Shown here piece after piece: positions 22,363-29,796 of a DNA stretch of 29,796 nt. The notes under the pieces are model-generated. The model was not told the DNA's origin and ran no database searches. It saw only the letters and a program-made list of their open reading frames with translations. The first letter of the stretch is position 1. Each line of letters begins with the position of its first letter. The DNA comes from a virus. The DNA is taken from IMG/VR virus record IMGVR_UViG_3300031857_000975, positions 1 to 29,796 of that record; one strand, written 5' to 3'. The translations under genes and the position numbers were made by a program.

Positions 22363-22588
22363 CCTTGTCTGTTTTATTTAGCAGTTCTTCCTCCGCCTCA
22401 ACTCGATCAAGTATCTCAAACGCATCAAATATAGCCAGCTTCTTAGTGGCAGCAGCGTTCTTAAGCTTGTCAGCAGAAAGGTCTTCCTCCCCTCCAGAGA
22501 TAATTCTCTCCTCAGCAACCTCTATCAAGTGCATCACTGCCTTTCGGCCAGCACTGATAATCTTTCTCTTTGTTTCATTTAACTCCAT
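22310..22588 (-). CDS. Candidate terminase small subunit
   Basis: A 92-aa, almost wholly helical and charged protein (MELNETKRKIISAGRKAVMH at the start; KKLAIFDAFEILDRVEAEEE in the middle). It ends in a basic tail (AERRAKRHG) read in a second frame over the first 53 bases of TerL. Small size, helical content and placement just before TerL suit a small terminase subunit that recognises DNA and assists TerL, but no helix-turn-helix is clear. It overlaps the GroES-like gene by 14 bases. An alternative is an unrelated small packaging-region protein. Confidence 0.55.
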   Translation of the reverse strand: MELNETKRKIISAGRKAVMHLIEVAEERIISGGEEDLSADKLKNAAATKKLAIFDAFEILDRVEAEEELLNKTDKDETGKGGFAERRAKRHG

Positions 22589-23153
22589 TCAGTTCTATGC
22601 AAACATTTTTAGAATACATTCTGTAGAGGGTAACTCCATCTATCTCAAACTCATACTCACTCTCTGGAGTAAAAGCAACCTTGTCACCGCTCTTTAGTCC
22701 TTTGTCAATAAGATCTTGGTTAGGGTATATAAGAGTTCCTCTTAGATACTCCTCATTACCTATCTTTGAAAGAATGTAGTTGTCCATTCTTTTCTCTGGC
22801 TTAACAAAGCAATACCGTGAGTGAGCCTTCCATTCCTTGTCTCTCTTGTATAGGTAGAACTGATCATCGTCAATCAAGAAAATGTTTTCAAATAGATATG
22901 ATCTACCACTACGTTCGTTACCATTGACATCGTTGTAATATTTAAACACGTTATGGTGAACGATCACAGTGTCTCCTGGCATAACATCTCCAGTATACCC
23001 GATTGGTGTAGCAAGAACCTTAGCGTGTCTATTAGATGCCTTATGATCTTCCTTAGAAGAGCTAGTTATAAAGTCTATACCTCCAATGCTCTTCACGTTA
23101 TCATACCTAGAACCACCTAACGGCTCTACAATAAAGTGAAATGGTGACCTCAT
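22575..23153 (-). CDS. GroES-like co-chaperonin, apparently duplicated
   Basis: A 192-aa protein. The first half looks like GroES: a mobile-loop-like SIGGIDF (22-28; GroES has SAGGIVL), then AKVLATP (44-50) and PGDTVIVHHN (59-68, the GroES GD-V-I/L motif). The second half repeats the pattern: RGTLIYPN (138-145), GLKSGDKVAF (152-161), EYEFEIDGVTLYRM (166-179) and VCIEL (184-188), like the GroES ending. GroES caps GroEL. Phage versions such as T4 gp31 help fold the capsid protein. The gene sits just before the terminase genes and the head block, which fits that role. About twice the GroES length suggests tandem duplication or fusion. The resemblance was found by eye. Confidence 0.6.
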   Translation of the reverse strand: MRSPFHFIVEPLGGSRYDNVKSIGGIDFITSSSKEDHKASNRHAKVLATPIGYTGDVMPGDTVIVHHNVFKYYNDVNGNERSGRSYLFENIFLIDDDQFYLYKRDKEWKAHSRYCFVKPEKRMDNYILSKIGNEEYLRGTLIYPNQDLIDKGLKSGDKVAFTPESEYEFEIDGVTLYRMYSKNVCIELNGVK

Positions 23154-23649: not shown

Positions 23650-24183
23650 TTAAAACAATTTTTTACTAATACCAATTTGATGCGTTTTGCTAAATGGTTG
23701 GTACTGGTAACTAAATAAATACTTGTTGTCCAAATAAGAAACTAATGCGCTTGGCTCAATCAATGAATTAACTGCGGCACCAACATAAATACCCTTTGGC
23801 TTTTTGACTATTGTCTCTGTTTTTGTTTCAGTTATGGTGTTGGTTACCACAGGTATTTTATAATCGTTCGTAGCGGTCATTTTAAGCACCTCTCCGAGGA
23901 CTTCTCCGCTTACCTTAGTACTTCCATACTCAAATGGAAATGTAGTCTCAAAACTATTAATTTGAGGCTTATAATCAACCAATACTGTGTCCCTTAAAAC
24001 TTGAGTTTTTATTTCTTTTTTAGTGACATTAATAGTATCAATTTGATGAATGAATACAGTGTCAGTCCTAACCTCAGTTACAACTTCAAAAGTACTTTCC
24101 TGTTCTTCGTGCGGATAAATTATAATAGTAACAATACATCCGAAAATAAACCAAGCTAATACTTCTAGAATATTCTTATTCAT
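23650..24183 (-). CDS. Spanin-like membrane-anchored protein
   Basis: A 177-aa protein with one N-terminal membrane segment (about 7-23, LAWFIFGCIVTIIIY) and few positive charges before it. A polar, Thr/Val-rich strand region follows (EVRTDTVFIHQIDTINVT) and then a C-terminal part with alternating hydrophobic residues (GIYVGAAVNSL; KYLFSYQYQPFSKTHQIGIS) that resembles outer-membrane beta strands. Following the endolysin by one base, it could link inner and outer membranes in the last step of lysis, as spanins do. No lipobox is seen. The C-terminal outer-membrane contact is my inference. Confidence 0.5.
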   Translation of the reverse strand: MNKNILEVLAWFIFGCIVTIIIYPHEEQESTFEVVTEVRTDTVFIHQIDTINVTKKEIKTQVLRDTVLVDYKPQINSFETTFPFEYGSTKVSGEVLGEVLKMTATNDYKIPVVTNTITETKTETIVKKPKGIYVGAAVNSLIEPSALVSYLDNKYLFSYQYQPFSKTHQIGISKKLF

Positions 24184-24184
24184 T

Positions 24185-24790
24185 TTAAGCTTGTTCTAGA
24201 AGTGAATAGTACAGTTTAAACTTTGCAATTCGATCTGCTAAACCATGTGTTCCACCGTTAACTCTTTTAGTAACCGCAGTTACGGTATCGTCACCAGATC
24301 CTTTAGAACAAATGTCCCAAAGTTTGTTTTTATCAAAGAACCAGATTGCTGAATCCATAGGGTACTTTGTTGCTACTAGATCTGGGTTTGCAACACAGTC
24401 TTCTTTAATGAAATCAGAAAAAGCCTTGTAGTTGCTCTTACCTGTCAATTGGATATATCCCCTACCTCTAAACTTAAATCCTTCCTTTGAAGCCTCGTCA
24501 CCGTTGCCCATTCTATTGGCGTACACTCGTGAACCAATTGCCTCACTTTTCCTTGCGTACTTCATAGCTGTAATATTATCCGCAAAGTACTTAGGGAATA
24601 CCTTTCTAAGACCTTCAGCAGAATAATTTAGATTCTCAGTAACAAACTGAAAGTTACCTGACTCATGTGCAATTTGTGCCAGAAAGTGAGCAAGGTGCAA
24701 AGGGTTTTTAATGTCGTACTTATCTACAACCTGAAGCATGTAAGATGCTGCCGCCTTTGGTAGTTTTGGTGCTAGATTTGCTGTGTTCAT
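24185..24790 (-). CDS. GH19-family endolysin
   Basis: A 201-aa protein covering a single glycoside hydrolase family 19 domain, which cuts glycan chains of peptidoglycan (or chitin). Diagnostic parts are HFLAQIAHESGNF (35-47; catalytic Glu E43), ENLNYSAEGLRKVFPKYF (52-69) and FRGRGYIQLTGKSNY (107-121), with the closing VNGG (177-180). No signal peptide is seen, so it needs a holin to reach its substrate, and holin-like genes lie just upstream. It overlaps the PAS gene by four bases (ATGA). The length is normal for phage GH19 lysins. Confidence 0.9.
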   Translation of the reverse strand: MNTANLAPKLPKAAASYMLQVVDKYDIKNPLHLAHFLAQIAHESGNFQFVTENLNYSAEGLRKVFPKYFADNITAMKYARKSEAIGSRVYANRMGNGDEASKEGFKFRGRGYIQLTGKSNYKAFSDFIKEDCVANPDLVATKYPMDSAIWFFDKNKLWDICSKGSGDDTVTAVTKRVNGGTHGLADRIAKFKLYYSLLEQA

Positions 24791-25524
24791 TTTTTTTCAG
24801 TTGCGTATTTAACTCCCATAATTGTTCCTACTATCGAAAAGGCATTTGTCAACAATATGCCAAACATGTTAGACCAGGTAGATCCAATAATTTGAGTGTC
24901 TTTGCTTGTGTATATCGCAACAGCGTATAAACCTGTTGTAATTACACCTACACCCATAATTACTACCAATGCCACTTTAACTACCGTACTAATCAACTCT
25001 GACTGGCTCCGTTTAATCAAAACATCCAAGTCGTTTAATGCAGCATTTTTTTCTATCTCAATAGAGTTTTTTAATTTTTCAGATTTCTCTAACTCTTGTT
25101 CAAGATTTGCTTTTAATACTTCAATTTCTTTTTGGTGTTTTACCGTCTGAGTAATGTCAGAAGCAATCTTCATTATCTTGTATACCTTCCCAGTATCATC
25201 AATAATAGGGTTATACGTGGCTTGCAAGAATATAGTGCTTCCGTCTCTCTTCACCCTTTCAAATTCACCAGAGTAAAACTCACCCTTCCCAAGTGTGTCC
25301 CAAAACTTTCTGTATTCTTCAGAGTCTGCGTAACTAGGCTTAACAAATATACTGTGGTGTCTTCCGACAATCTTTGAAGACTGACCTGCCTTATATCCTA
25401 CCGCCTCTAAAAAAATATCATTTACTCTTAGTATGTTGCCATCTAAATCAAAGTCAATAATCGCATTACTTCGATTAATTGCCTCTAATTTGCTGATCAA
25501 CTCTTCTTTACTCAACGTCCGCAT
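24787..25524 (-). CDS. PAS-domain protein with two C-terminal membrane segments, in lysis cassette
   Basis: A 245-aa protein from the ATG at 25524. An in-frame GTG at 25563 would add 13 residues but would lengthen the overlap with the upstream gene from 17 to 56 bases, so I prefer the ATG. Numbering here starts at the ATG. Residues about 20-124 are a PAS domain close to those of bacterial chemoreceptors (IIDFDLDGNILRVND; GRHHSIFVKPSYAD; GEFYSGEFERVKRDGS; QATYNPIIDDTGKVYK; IASDIT). A coiled coil follows (126-172), then two membrane segments (about 181-205 and 217-237), ending KYATEKK. It has no kinase, methyl-accepting or nucleotide-cyclase domain. It lies between the holin-like genes and the endolysin, so it may be a holin, antiholin or timing regulator that senses a ligand or redox state. 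The PAS call is strong and the lysis role is inferred. Confidence 0.8.
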   Translation of the reverse strand: MRTLSKEELISKLEAINRSNAIIDFDLDGNILRVNDIFLEAVGYKAGQSSKIVGRHHSIFVKPSYADSEEYRKFWDTLGKGEFYSGEFERVKRDGSTIFLQATYNPIIDDTGKVYKIMKIASDITQTVKHQKEIEVLKANLEQELEKSEKLKNSIEIEKNAALNDLDVLIKRSQSELISTVVKVALVVIMGVGVITTGLYAVAIYTSKDTQIIGSTWSNMFGILLTNAFSIVGTIMGVKYATEKK

Positions 25525-25756
25525 TATTATTTGTAGGCTTCTTAAATATCTTTTCAGCAGCACTAATTCCTAGCGCAGCAGCAGACAAAGCCGCTACTGA
25601 ATATACTAATGCTTCAGAAGGCTCATTAACTGCATCGTGGTTAGCGTAAAGCGTGTAGCAAAGAGCAACAGCACTAAATACACCTACAAATCTTTTGCTT
25701 GACGCCTCTCCATTCTCAGAGAGAAAACCCTTTGACCAAATAAAAAACTGTTTCAT
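25508..25756 (-). CDS. Holin-like protein with two membrane segments
   Basis: An 82-aa protein with hydrophobic segments at about 23-39 (RFVGVFSAVALCYTLY) and 49-66 (ALVYSVAALSAAALGIS), a short polar loop between them, and a basic then acidic C-terminus (EKIFKKPTNNNADVE). Small size, two membrane spans and position before the endolysin fit a class II holin, which opens the inner membrane for lysin release. It overlaps the previous gene by one base (TAATG) and the PAS gene by 17 bases, and is therefore translationally coupled to it. Function is inferred. Confidence 0.65.
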   Translation of the reverse strand: MKQFFIWSKGFLSENGEASSKRFVGVFSAVALCYTLYANHDAVNEPSEALVYSVAALSAAALGISAAEKIFKKPTNNNADVE

Positions 25757-25965
25757 TACTTCCTAAATATTTTGCGCCAGATATTTTTGACATCGTTTAA
25801 AAAAAACTCACTTTTTTTAATTTGCTCCCACAATTTTATTATCAAACCTAGAAACGTCAAAATTAAAATCAGGAATTTAAGGGTTTCATTCATGTTCATT
25901 ACCGAGGTAACTGCCCCTATAACGCCTAAACCAAGTACTTGCTCAAATGGTGGAATATTACTCAT
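25756..25965 (-). CDS. Small membrane protein, holin or antiholin candidate
   Basis: A 69-aa protein with a weakly hydrophobic N-terminal stretch (about 10-22, VLGLGVIGAVTSV), a strong membrane segment (about 29-45, LKFLILILTFLGLIIKL) and a basic amphipathic tail (NDVKNIWRKIFRK). It is the first gene of the lysis cassette, just after a terminator and a candidate promoter. With the 82-aa protein it may form a holin/antiholin pair. The sequence does not tell which is which. Confidence 0.6.
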   Translation of the reverse strand: MSNIPPFEQVLGLGVIGAVTSVMNMNETLKFLILILTFLGLIIKLWEQIKKSEFFLNDVKNIWRKIFRK

Positions 25966-26506: not shown

Positions 26507-26815
26507 TTAAGCTGCACTAACTTCCTCAGTGGACTCAGGAGCTACATAGTCACCTGTGATGGTTAGGTTAAGCTGTTCTGCTACCCAGTCCCAAGCAAAT
26601 TCATCTTGATTCCATTCTTGATAAGCTTCACCTGTCATGCTCAAGTTCCCTTGTGCCACTTGTGAGCCTACATTACCTTCTGCTGTTTCAGCTAGTAAAG
26701 AATAATAGAATGTTGCACTTGTTCCTAGTGTAACATTTACAGCGTAAGCGTTTAAGATTTTAGCTTCTACTGTTTGTCCGTTGTCCCAAATTTGGACGCT
26801 TTCAATTTGTTTCAT
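26507..26815 (-). CDS. Conserved phage protein with its start displaced by a homing endonuclease
   Basis: A 102-aa protein, beta-type in its first two thirds (QIWDNGQTVEAKILNAYAVN; SATFYYSLLAE), followed by EWNQDEFAWDWVAEQLNLTI and an acidic tail. I recognise the family as a small protein often found beside tail-fibre genes in Bacteroidota phages, with unknown function. The start region overlaps the 3' end of the GIY-YIG gene by 14 bases. A near copy of its first seven codons (MKTIESV against MKQIESV) lies just upstream of that endonuclease gene. This suggests the endonuclease inserted near codon 7 and the full gene was regenerated after it. Confidence 0.65.
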   Translation of the reverse strand: MKQIESVQIWDNGQTVEAKILNAYAVNVTLGTSATFYYSLLAETAEGNVGSQVAQGNLSMTGEAYQEWNQDEFAWDWVAEQLNLTITGDYVAPESTEEVSAA

Positions 26816-27482
26816 GCGTTTTTTGTTTATTTTCCCAATACTTTTTTTGTGATATACTCATTGTTAATTTAATCTCATCTGACAGTTTAACTCCTTTTCT
26901 GTTAGACGTTTTACCCTTTTTGGCCATACTCATTTTAGCCTTAGTTTCATCTGATAGATTTTGTTTTGCTGCTTTCATTCTGGCTTTAGTCTCATCAGAT
27001 ATATTTTTCTTTGATAATTTTAACTTTTCTTTATGCTCTTCTGAAAGGGGTTTGCCTTTTTTTGCTAAACTTAATTTTGTTTTAGTTTCATCAGAAACAG
27101 TTCTTCCAATTCCAGCTAATGCAATTTTAGCTTTAGACTCTTCTGAATGCTTTCTTCCTTTAAAAGCAATCTTCATTCTTTGTCTTTCTTTTTCAGAAAC
27201 AATTCTTCCAACTATTCCTTCACCTCCATTTGTTAAATTAACTAAAGGTCCTGTTCCTAAATCTGCTCTCCCATATTCTGAAATAAGCAACTGTTCTAAT
27301 TCACAACAATCTTTCCAATTTTCAAGTATAGAAATTATCTCTACTTCATATCCTGCTTTTGCAACTACGTTTTTCCAAAATGGATTTCTGCTATATTTAG
27401 AATATGGTCTTCTTTTTGATTTTGCAATCCCAACGTAAAACACCTCATAAGTATCAAGCCTTCTATGTCTATAAACTATCAT
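26802..27482 (-). CDS. GIY-YIG homing endonuclease with NUMOD3 repeats
   Basis: A 226-aa protein. The N-terminal GIY-YIG nuclease shows VYRH (3-6), FYVGIAKSKRRPY (15-27) and ELEQLLISEYG (61-71; catalytic Glu candidates here), followed by VNLTNGGEG (81-89). Residues about 97-215 contain several NUMOD3-type DNA-binding repeats (SEESKAKIALAGIGR; SDETKAKMSMAKKGK). Such enzymes make a specific double-strand break and spread by repair. The start overlaps a short stub frame in ATGA, and the TGA stop lies inside the start region of the 102-aa gene. The gene thus fits exactly between a stub and its regenerated target. Confidence 0.88.
   Translation of the reverse strand: MIVYRHRRLDTYEVFYVGIAKSKRRPYSKYSRNPFWKNVVAKAGYEVEIISILENWKDCCELEQLLISEYGRADLGTGPLVNLTNGGEGIVGRIVSEKERQRMKIAFKGRKHSEESKAKIALAGIGRTVSDETKTKLSLAKKGKPLSEEHKEKLKLSKKNISDETKARMKAAKQNLSDETKAKMSMAKKGKTSNRKGVKLSDEIKLTMSISQKKYWENKQKTHETN
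26816..26830 (-). promoter_or_regulatory. A-rich leader of the 102-aa gene
   Basis: The minus strand reads ATAAACAAAAAACGC before ATG, with the same TAAACAAA core as the 84-aa and 136-aa genes. Here it lies inside the endonuclease coding sequence, so the leader has been rebuilt within the inserted gene or came with it. Confidence 0.4.
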
Positions 27483-27529: not shown

Positions 27530-29796
27530 TCATACAGGACAAGTTTCTAAAGCGTTTGCAATTATAATCCAGTTAGACCCATTGGATTGAATCATTACAG
27601 AGCTATAATCACAATATCCTAATAGGTTATAAGTTGTAAGACCATTAATTGTCTGTGAACCATTACCATCTAAGGTGACAGACCTTGCCCCTAGATTGGT
27701 GTTATATTGGTAAATCACATAAATACGACCTGCACAAGTTGTTGCATCTGGAAGTGTTGCCGTTCTGTTGCTCGCACAATCAAATCCAACAGTGTAGTCC
27801 GTTTCAGTTAATGTATAGTTAGCAGTTTTGGTACTATGTGGAGTAGAAACTGAGCCTGAGAAGGTAGCTGCGCCTGTGGAGGCTAGGGTTAATGATGTAC
27901 TTCCTGCATTTACAAATTGTGTAATATTTGGAGTGGTAGCATGACTTGCACCAAACACTCTAATGTAACTTTGCCCTCCAATATTAGATAATCCTAGACT
28001 ACCAGAAGCATTACCTCCGTAAAGAAAAGGATTGGCGTTTGATAAAGTTAAATCACCTACGACATTTAATCCAAAATTAAAAGTTGATGCTCCTGATGAT
28101 GGAATAACTAAATCTGCTGACGCTCCTGTTTGTAAAATTAGACTTCCACCTGACTCGTATATAAAGCTATTATCGGTAGCACCAATTGTCAAGGTATCTG
28201 TAATTTTAGCCGTACCTGTTACCTGCAACATCTGACCTGAGTTGGTGGAATTTCCAACCAACAAGTTTCCAAACCACCTGCCGAAGGTTGTAGATGTGTT
28301 GCCAAGCACAGTTGTGTTTGAGCCTAAGCCAATAGCAGAGTTACCTATTACGATTTGATTGGTTTGATTGTCTGCCGCTGCACGACTATCAACTCCAATA
28401 AAAATTGAGTTGTTTGCAATTGTAAGGTTTGTTCCTGCTCCAATAAATCTGCCTGCTCTAAATCCAATAAAACAATTATTGCTTCCTGTGGTATTATTTA
28501 AACCTGCATTTTGACCAAACGAAATGTTAGTTCCTCCTGTGGTGTTTGCTTGTCCTGAACCTTGTCCAAAGAAAGAGTTAGATGCACCTGTTGTATTAGC
28601 AACTCCTGAATTTTGACCAAAGAAAGAGTTGCTTGCTCCTGTTGTATTTGCTTGTCCTGAAGCTACACCAAAGAAAGAATTGTTTGATGCTGTGGTATTT
28701 GCAAATCCAGAAGCGTTTCCAAAAAAAGCATTGGAACTTCCTGTTGTATTATTTCCTCCAGAAGCTTGTCCAAAGAAATTATTGCTTCCTCCTGTTGTGT
28801 TTGCTGTTCCTGCGCTTGTACCAAAGAAAGAGTTATTTGCTCCTGTTGTATTATTTTGTCCTGCAATTGTACCGAAGAAAGAGTTATTTGCTCCTGTTGT
28901 GTTTGCTGCGCCTGAACTTGCACCAAAGAAAGCATTAGAGCCTCCTGTTATATTTGCTGTACCAGAACCGAAACCAAAGAAAGAATTTGAACCTCCTGTG
29001 GTGTTAACATTTCCTGCCCCTCTTCCAAAGAAAGAATTGCCTCCTCCTGTTGTATTATTTACTCCACAATCTCTTCCATAAAAAGAATTATTAGTTCCTA
29101 TTGTATTATTTCTACCTGAGTTTAATCCAATAAAGGTGTTACTATCAAGACTACTTATTCTTATCTGATTAGTAACTGTCCCTGCACTATTGTTAAATGT
29201 AACTGATGCACTTGACCCAGAAATAGTGCGAATCGAAAGTACAATCGTTCCATTGAAGTCAGATGTTGGAGTAATTACCAAAGTTCCTGTTGTAGTCGCT
29301 CTTGGCCCAATAGTATTTGAAGCAGTTAATGCAGAAGATGTAAAGCCTCCAAAGTCAATGACAAACGAACCTGCCGTTCTTCCAGTTACTGTATAAGCAA
29401 TCTGATAGAATGTATTTACCACCCCTGCAAGTGTACTCGTCAAGGTAGTAGTAGACCCTGCAACGTGAGTATATCCTGTCGCAAAGCTAGTTCCTGTCCA
29501 AGAAGCATCGCCTGTGCCTGTGGTTAGCAGTTCAGCACCTAGCTGCCCTGAGTCGGAAGCCGTAGTTCCTTGGATGGTTGATAAGCCGTTAAGCAAGGAT
29601 GTGCCTGTAACCTGCAACATCTGCCCTGAGTTGGTTGATGAGCCTACAAGTAGGTTACCGAACCACCGCCCGAAGGTAGTGGAGGAGTTGCCGATTACTG
29701 TGGTGTTGCTGCCAAGACCGATGGCGGAGTGACCAATTACGATTTGGTTGGTTTGAGAGTTTGCGTTTGCTCTAGTATCTGCTCCTAAGAATACAG
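27530..29796 (-). CDS. Tail-fibre/adhesin protein, partial at its N-terminus
   Basis: The frame is open through the right edge; the ATG at 29620 is internal (preceded in frame by FGRWFGNLLVGSSTNSGQ), so the true start lies outside. About 755 residues are visible. The order is: a collar module at the edge, a beta domain (about 29600-29160), 14 copies of a 17-residue repeat of the type NSFFGxxxGxxNTTGxx (28427-29140), and a second copy of the collar module (28222-28407). Further beta segments follow, then a C-terminal domain (YTLTETDYTVGFDCASNRTA; VTLDGNGSQTINGLTTYNLL) typical of Bacteroidota phage fibres. The repeats resemble the beta-roll heads of trimeric adhesins. It probably binds the host surface. 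No endosialidase-type chaperone domain is seen. Confidence 0.8.
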   Translation of the reverse strand, partial: VFLGADTRANANSQTNQIVIGHSAIGLGSNTTVIGNSSTTFGRWFGNLLVGSSTNSGQMLQVTGTSLLNGLSTIQGTTASDSGQLGAELLTTGTGDASWTGTSFATGYTHVAGSTTTLTSTLAGVVNTFYQIAYTVTGRTAGSFVIDFGGFTSSALTASNTIGPRATTTGTLVITPTSDFNGTIVLSIRTISGSSASVTFNNSAGTVTNQIRISSLDSNTFIGLNSGRNNTIGTNNSFYGRDCGVNNTTGGGNSFFGRGAGNVNTTGGSNSFFGFGSGTANITGGSNAFFGASSGAANTTGANNSFFGTIAGQNNTTGANNSFFGTSAGTANTTGGSNNFFGQASGGNNTTGSSNAFFGNASGFANTTASNNSFFGVASGQANTTGASNSFFGQNSGVANTTGASNSFFGQGSGQANTTGGTNISFGQNAGLNNTTGSNNCFIGFRAGRFIGAGTNLTIANNSIFIGVDSRAAADNQTNQIVIGNSAIGLGSNTTVLGNTSTTFGRWFGNLLVGNSTNSGQMLQVTGTAKITDTLTIGATDNSFIYESGGSLILQTGASADLVIPSSGASTFNFGLNVVGDLTLSNANPFLYGGNASGSLGLSNIGGQSYIRVFGASHATTPNITQFVNAGSTSLTLASTGAATFSGSVSTPHSTKTANYTLTETDYTVGFDCASNRTATLPDATTCAGRIYVIYQYNTNLGARSVTLDGNGSQTINGLTTYNLLGYCDYSSVMIQSNGSNWIIIANALETCPV
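28222..28407 (-). repeat. Duplicated fibre collar module, inner copy
   Basis: This 186-bp segment encodes NQTNQIVIGNSAIGLG, then TTFGRWFGNLLVGNSTNSGQ and MLQVTG. It is closely matched in the same frame 1389 bp upstream at 29611-29796. The spacing equals 463 codons, so a whole block (beta domain, repeat array and collar) may have been duplicated. Confidence 0.8.
28427..29140 (-). repeat. 14 tandem copies of a 51-bp coding repeat
   Basis: The 17-residue units (for example NSFFGTSAGTANTTG plus two residues) repeat at exactly 51-bp spacing from 29140 to 28427 with no length change. Positions for Asn, Phe-Phe-Gly, the central Gly and NTTG are nearly constant, while the three residues after FFG vary. 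This suggests a beta-roll or beta-helix with one turn per repeat. Confidence 0.9.
29611..29796 (-). repeat. Duplicated fibre collar module, outer copy at window edge
   Basis: This encodes SQTNQIVIGHSAIGLG, then TTFGRWFGNLLVGSSTNSGQ and MLQVTG, matching the copy at 28222-28407. Its DNA looks clearly richer in G and C than the inner copy although the proteins are almost the same, which points to synonymous divergence or a different source. Confidence 0.75.

Follow-up and report, generated by a model that had tools for sequence, protein, structure and literature searches.

For a lytic phage, when to lyse the host is a decision of central importance, and the timing is usually ascribed to a clock inside the holin. 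T4 lysis inhibition involves the holin T together with the antiholin RI, the latter sensing periplasmic superinfection signals. Among bacteria, the LytST-LrgAB system of S. mutans places holin-like proteins under a two-component system that is tied to oxygen and metabolic state (PMC3507848). A PAS-gated or two-component-gated holin was not found in a search of mainly openly accessible literature. Here we describe a phage gene, located between holin-like genes and an endolysin gene, whose product joins a PAS domain to a membrane hairpin.

The PAS-hairpin gene and its surroundings

The window, i.e., the whole stretch of 29,796 nucleotides analyzed here, is a fragment of the genome of a podovirus of Bacteroidota-type bacteria, and every member of the family described below likewise comes from metagenomic contigs. 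The terminase of the virus matches that of MW202828.1 (Manatee Spring) at 70% and that of Flavobacterium phage elemo at 45%, with Cellulophaga phages also being related. The gene in question (P0001) lies at 24787–25524 on the minus strand, with an ATG start at 25524 and a stop at 24787, and encodes a protein of 245 aa. The plus strand over the same interval contains 11 stops, the start Met aligns with that of a relative (L006) and dN/dS against a 98%-identical relative is 0.05.

All of its neighbours are also encoded on the minus strand. Upstream lie an 82-aa holin-like membrane protein (25508–25756), the family of which recurs beside related genes in other loci, and an ORF for a 69-aa small membrane protein, the second holin candidate (25756–25965). 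Downstream are a GH19 endolysin without an N-terminal membrane segment (24185–24790; PF00182 2e-8, phrog_181 endolysin 6e-66) and a 177-aa protein with an N-terminal membrane segment (23650–24183), which is a spanin candidate by position only. The overlaps of 17 bases with the 82-aa gene and 4 bases with the endolysin gene, given in a preliminary description made from the sequence alone, agree with the ORF coordinates. The equivalent stretch of the near relative MW202828.1 has no hairpin protein and contains genes for a PF05105 holin, a spanin-like protein and an M15 endolysin; a gene resembling the 177-aa spanin candidate adjoins the endolysin there.

Three other genes of the window, again on the minus strand, may be recorded. 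A probable homing endonuclease with three NUMOD3 motifs (5e-15) and a GIY-YIG-like start (26802–27482) is found between the fibre and lysis genes, the fibre-like protein (27530–29620) possesses many short 'TTGxNNxFFGxxSG' repeats, and a GroES-like co-chaperonin (22575–23153; phrog_13932 2e-22) is encoded shortly before the terminase gene.

The PAS domain proposed in the preliminary description (residues 21–126; 25147–25464) was confirmed by profile (PF08447 2e-11 over residues 32–120, PF13426 9e-11 over residues 26–126 and NCBIfam sensory_box 1e-14) and by structure comparison of the predicted model, the closest solved relatives being the FAD-PAS domains of MmoS and NifL. The FAD sensor MmoS is the best PDB sequence match (3ewk, 1.6e-12), while NifL ranks high in the Foldseek results for the model. 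Residues W75, H57, Y71, R90 and Y104 are invariant in 43 phage PAS domains, W75 being the F-alpha Trp. It has been reported that FAD binding in NifL, MmoS, AerC and Aer depends first on Trp at this position and second on His, and that F-alpha His goes with heme and F-alpha Trp with FAD (PMC10468136). Heme and flavin had both been put forward as the bound ligand; by this rule, and with the Trp and His invariant, flavin is favoured and heme was dropped as first-choice cofactor. Counting against FAD is the Asn conserved in some FAD-PAS clusters, which is Arg90 here in our own alignment to NifL. Judged from these residues and matches, the domain probably holds FAD, and because of the invariant F-alpha Trp and His and the resemblance to MmoS and NifL, we would first look to a redox or respiratory signal as its input.

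The remainder of the protein consists of a coiled coil (residues 125–176; 24997–25152), TM helix 1 (residues 177–206; 24907–24996), which is continuous with it, and TM helix 2 (residues 211–243; 24796–24894), which carries the near-invariant 'DTQIIGSTWSNMFGILLTNAFSIVGTIMGVKYA' and a stripe of polar and small residues. AlphaFold2 modeling (mean pLDDT 87), for which an 85-row alignment of matched segments was used, returned the PAS fold, an unbroken helix over residues 125–205 comprising coiled coil and TM1, and a second helix over residues 211–243; with full effectors in the alignment, their N-terminal module was aligned against the PAS domain and the pLDDT was 64. The coiled coil and C-terminal hairpin of the preliminary description were thus recovered, and its statement that the output domain of a normal sensor is missing was correct; a Pfam search detected no kinase core, receiver or methyl-accepting signalling domain, the last of which defines a chemoreceptor (MCP). 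The hairpin itself is likely to be the output. TM2 is the most conserved part of the protein, being nearly invariant over 49 rows, and its polar and small residues are grouped on one face (p 0.004). Holins are usually far less conserved than this, and such conservation could mean that there is a specific protein target.

Fusion and two-component forms of the effector

The same layout was found in 12 further IMG/VR loci at 66–100% identity, and the resulting 13 fusion loci (window included) form four groups at 90% identity. A chance fusion by misassembly was rejected because the layout occurs in four diverged groups from different samples. The next gene downstream is an endolysin in all 13 loci, at a spacing of −4 to +24 bases, and these endolysins belong to three unrelated families (GH19, M15 peptidase and GH24 lysozyme). 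The coiled coil has a constant length in all fusion groups, the conserved TM1 region beginning 48 residues after the PAS 'DIT' motif in each. No receiver was detected in any fusion contig tested, including the 47-kb contig of L008, and neither kinase nor receiver is present in the fragment of the window's phage.

Most relatives of the C-terminal half are separate proteins of 190–228 aa, here termed effectors, which are encoded by the last gene of a three-gene operon in the order histidine kinase, stand-alone receiver (~143 aa) and effector. The kinase combines a PAS, PAS-PAS or other sensor with HATPase_c, while the effector carries the same hairpin behind an N-terminal module of its own (~60 aa) and a coiled coil. 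When IMG/VR was scanned with the effector alignment, at least 579 stretches were confirmed to encode it. The 149 loci analyzed (65 groups) comprise 136 operon-type loci and the 13 PAS fusions. A receiver was identified in 132 of the 149, directly upstream of the effector in 121 and with one or two genes between in 11, and the operon loci without one sit at contig ends, except L113. A kinase with an H-box accompanies 124 of the 132 receivers, the remaining loci being cut by contig ends or truncated, and the effector is present in all 78 loci that were fetched by receiver. Residues of the phosphorelay are intact (kinase H-box in 124/124; receiver acidic pair, phospho-Asp and Ser in 132/132 and Lys in 131/132), and on this basis the relay looks active. 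The elements expected of a two-component system (kinase H-box and ATPase; receiver DD, D, S/T and K) are found in the related operons and not in the window, whose protein represents a one-component version of a two-component system that is widespread in phages. L014-type operons contain a soluble PAS-PAS kinase with an N-terminus similar to the fusion. An origin of the fusion by a single deletion in such an operon is attractive, but it was not retained as the PAS tree does not settle the branch concerned (support 58/81).

Some departures from the common operon were noted. The effector at L113:3150–3806 has no kinase or receiver nearby despite its flanks, and is possibly an orphan using a partner elsewhere. 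L017 and L060 have two histidine kinase-like genes upstream of the receiver, one with a PAS domain and one with a signal-peptide N-terminus. In about ten loci, among them L127, L128, L130, L137, L139 and L149, a gene inserted after the receiver and before the effector encodes a multi-TM protein of 162–167 aa ('LTYHDSEPTEVLQGLIWLIFAP'), and marine-type loci (L126:8259–9371 and relatives) repeatedly encode a 370-aa membrane/coiled-coil protein at the fourth or fifth gene past the effector.

Heptad-dependent linker lengths are a known mark of the signalling helices, or coiled coils, of PAS and LOV proteins (PMC6798134). In the two-component effectors, the conserved ends of the coiled coil lie 57, 64, 71, 78, 85 or 92 residues apart, a spacing that equals 1 modulo 7 in all 55 measurable cases (the search motifs could not be matched in six more group representatives). 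The chance of such a pattern is about 6 in 100,000, assuming an independent 1-in-7 for each of the five other lengths. These lengths, as read from the sequences, would mark a signalling helix in the effectors.

Three input forms share the coiled coil and hairpin, namely the receiver-linked module, PAS and GAF. The forms with PAS input make up one clade (support 100/100). The GAF forms, L194 and L218 (PF01590 2e-17 and 6e-18), have no receiver in the stretch and lie in lysis surroundings, beside a GH19 gene or a holin-like gene. As the input is swapped to PAS or GAF while the hairpin stays, the hairpin appears as the constant output. The reverse exchange is seen in a Bacteroidetes MAG (L339:5432–6481), where the effector-type N-terminal module and coiled coil are joined to HisKA/HATPase in place of the hairpin, in a gene following a 71%-identical receiver. 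Since module and coiled coil drive HisKA/HATPase in this protein, the N-terminal module of the effector is an input domain. Input and output are thus separate modules, the hairpin occupying the place of an output domain. The module-kinase protein was found in one of 345 Bacteroidota genomes, this being the seed genome itself. In L149:7412–7990 (marine-type; same contig as L184), a 192-aa microbial rhodopsin (PF01036 3.8e-12; RYFDW in helix C and 'DIAAKLG' with Lys in helix G) is encoded between receiver and effector, pointing tentatively to light as a further input.

No NCBIfam model fits the effector. Searches of 50,697 phage records by tblastn yielded no effector and no receiver, and for the PAS fusion only PAS-level matches. 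No effector was found in 84,980 species genomes by exact short patterns, an approximate absence given that the divergent effector of L338, a phage-like contig in a MAG, was missed by them; a profile search, for which the L338 genome served as a working control, found the effector in 0 of 345 Bacteroidota genomes. Probable members in BFVD are an uncultured Caudovirales protein named 'histidine kinase' (45% identity, 136 columns) and an 'uncharacterized protein' (57%, 120 columns). Sequences are hence on record, yet the system is unnamed in the database records examined, and no family or isolated-phage record describing it was found. Without a Pfam, PHROG, NCBIfam or PADLOC model or a match in those phage records, the effector is invisible to present annotation.

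Association with lysis and proposed function

With each group represented by a single locus, endolysin-type genes account for 56 of 697 positions within six genes of the effector and for two of 446 farther away (OR 19; Fisher p 1e-10, an optimistic value as the groups share ancestry). Fifteen of the 56 are phrog_3000-like or DUF5675 genes with a less certain role in lysis, and their exclusion leaves 41 vs. 2. The conserved linkage to lysis genes, which the preliminary description had made a check of its proposal, therefore holds both for the fusions and for the wider family. That the endolysins vary in family and in position speaks for a repeated association with the effector. In groups having at least five genes on each side, an endolysin-type gene lies within six genes in 33 of 45; in the other 12 no recognized endolysin was found over that distance, and for this reason the link to lysis is graded as likely and lysis may not be the target everywhere.

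The GH19 endolysin of the window, having no N-terminal membrane segment, needs a hole in the membrane. The 245-aa protein resembles a holin in being a phage membrane protein of a lysis cassette with at least one TM helix, and it is large for one. Counting against a holin role, the hairpin matched no holin family in Pfam or PHROGs, the cassette already encodes two small membrane proteins that could be the holin, and MW202828.1 manages without a hairpin protein. By analogy, the protein may work like a sensor-gated holin or antiholin, which does not imply membership of a holin family.

We consider, with moderate confidence, that the 245-aa protein is a signal-gated membrane effector (holin or antiholin) which sets the timing of lysis in a one-component, probably redox-sensing form. 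In the mechanism that we infer, the cytoplasmic PAS domain, probably with FAD, would respond to the infected cell's redox or respiratory state, and the signal would travel down a parallel dimeric coiled coil that runs unbroken into TM1. The packing of the hairpins would then be altered via the conserved polar/small face of TM2, so that they would either open the membrane (holin) or restrain or free the adjacent small holins (antiholin), and host physiology would determine when the cytosolic GH19 endolysin gains access to the wall. In the two-component form, the histidine kinase would phosphorylate the stand-alone receiver, which would act on the N-terminal module of the effector. This suggests that these viruses time the burst of the host by reading its internal state.

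A hairpin gated in this way could have a target other than lysis, such as membrane potential, ion flow, a conserved host membrane protein or superinfection exclusion. A single specific partner is suggested by the near invariance of TM2 in widely differing phages, many genomes with the system are those of large phages with rich takeover gene sets, and the 12 groups without a recognized endolysin nearby also fit. We nevertheless hold such a target to be unlikely in view of the enrichment near endolysins of six kinds and the endolysin as next gene in all fusion groups. A defence or exclusion system was specifically tried as an explanation; no PADLOC model matched, which sets the effector apart from known anti-phage defence.

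It is also conceivable that the hairpin is merely the anchor of a membrane receptor with its output in another protein (host kinase, chemotaxis machinery or a small membrane protein), as PAS and coiled coil resemble the sensory half of chemoreceptors and kinases and Foldseek aligns the model with LOV-histidine kinases over 240 columns. A mere anchor need not be near-invariant, however, yet TM2 is conserved above all else; the receiver-, PAS- and GAF-driven forms have only coiled coil and hairpin in common, and the Pfam search found none of the signalling domains of such receptors, so that this explanation appears quite doubtful. The fusion, having neither kinase nor receiver, might lastly be taken for a decaying, functionless remnant of a two-component operon, which is scarcely credible and was rejected given the dN/dS of 0.05, the constant length and the retention of the layout by four diverged groups beside three endolysin types.

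The signal-gated effector may be extended to the whole family in a proposal which we regard as evenly balanced, i.e., that many uncultured Bacteroidota-type phages possess their own phosphorelay, the output of which triggers or delays lysis from the membrane and not through DNA, with interchangeable inputs (PAS redox, GAF, two-component and, in one phage, rhodopsin) tying lysis time to host redox, energy or light. If true, many environmental phages would read host physiology before lysis via a swappable sensor wired to a membrane effector, which would give a soluble, testable handle on lysis timing. It would also provide a two-component system with a phage membrane effector as output instead of transcription, and natural modular sensor-to-membrane switches.

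Comparison with described systems

The T4 T/RI system is similar in that a phage senses a condition that alters holin triggering; RI is periplasmic, whereas a cytoplasmic PAS domain, a GAF domain or a full two-component system is used here, and we know of no sequence relation between the two. The S21 pinholin resembles the hairpin in having two TM segments, and the glycine zipper of its TMD2 is comparable to the small and polar residues of TM2, but it has no sensor domain and serves SAR endolysins (PMC9025707), whereas the endolysin of the window has no N-terminal membrane segment. On the sensory side, the redox chemoreceptors Aer, AerC and BdlA share a PAS domain with an FAD-type sequence signature and differ in carrying a methyl-accepting signalling domain. 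YF1, NifL and MmoS, PAS/LOV kinases with coiled-coil linkers, are alike in PAS domain, continuous signalling helix and heptad-periodic lengths (PMC6798134), but their output is a DHp/ATPase kinase core where the window's protein has a membrane hairpin. LytST-LrgAB is alike in pairing a two-component system with holin-like proteins. That system is bacterial and acts on expression, whereas the present one is phage-encoded, with a receiver free of any DNA-binding domain and the effector in the same operon.
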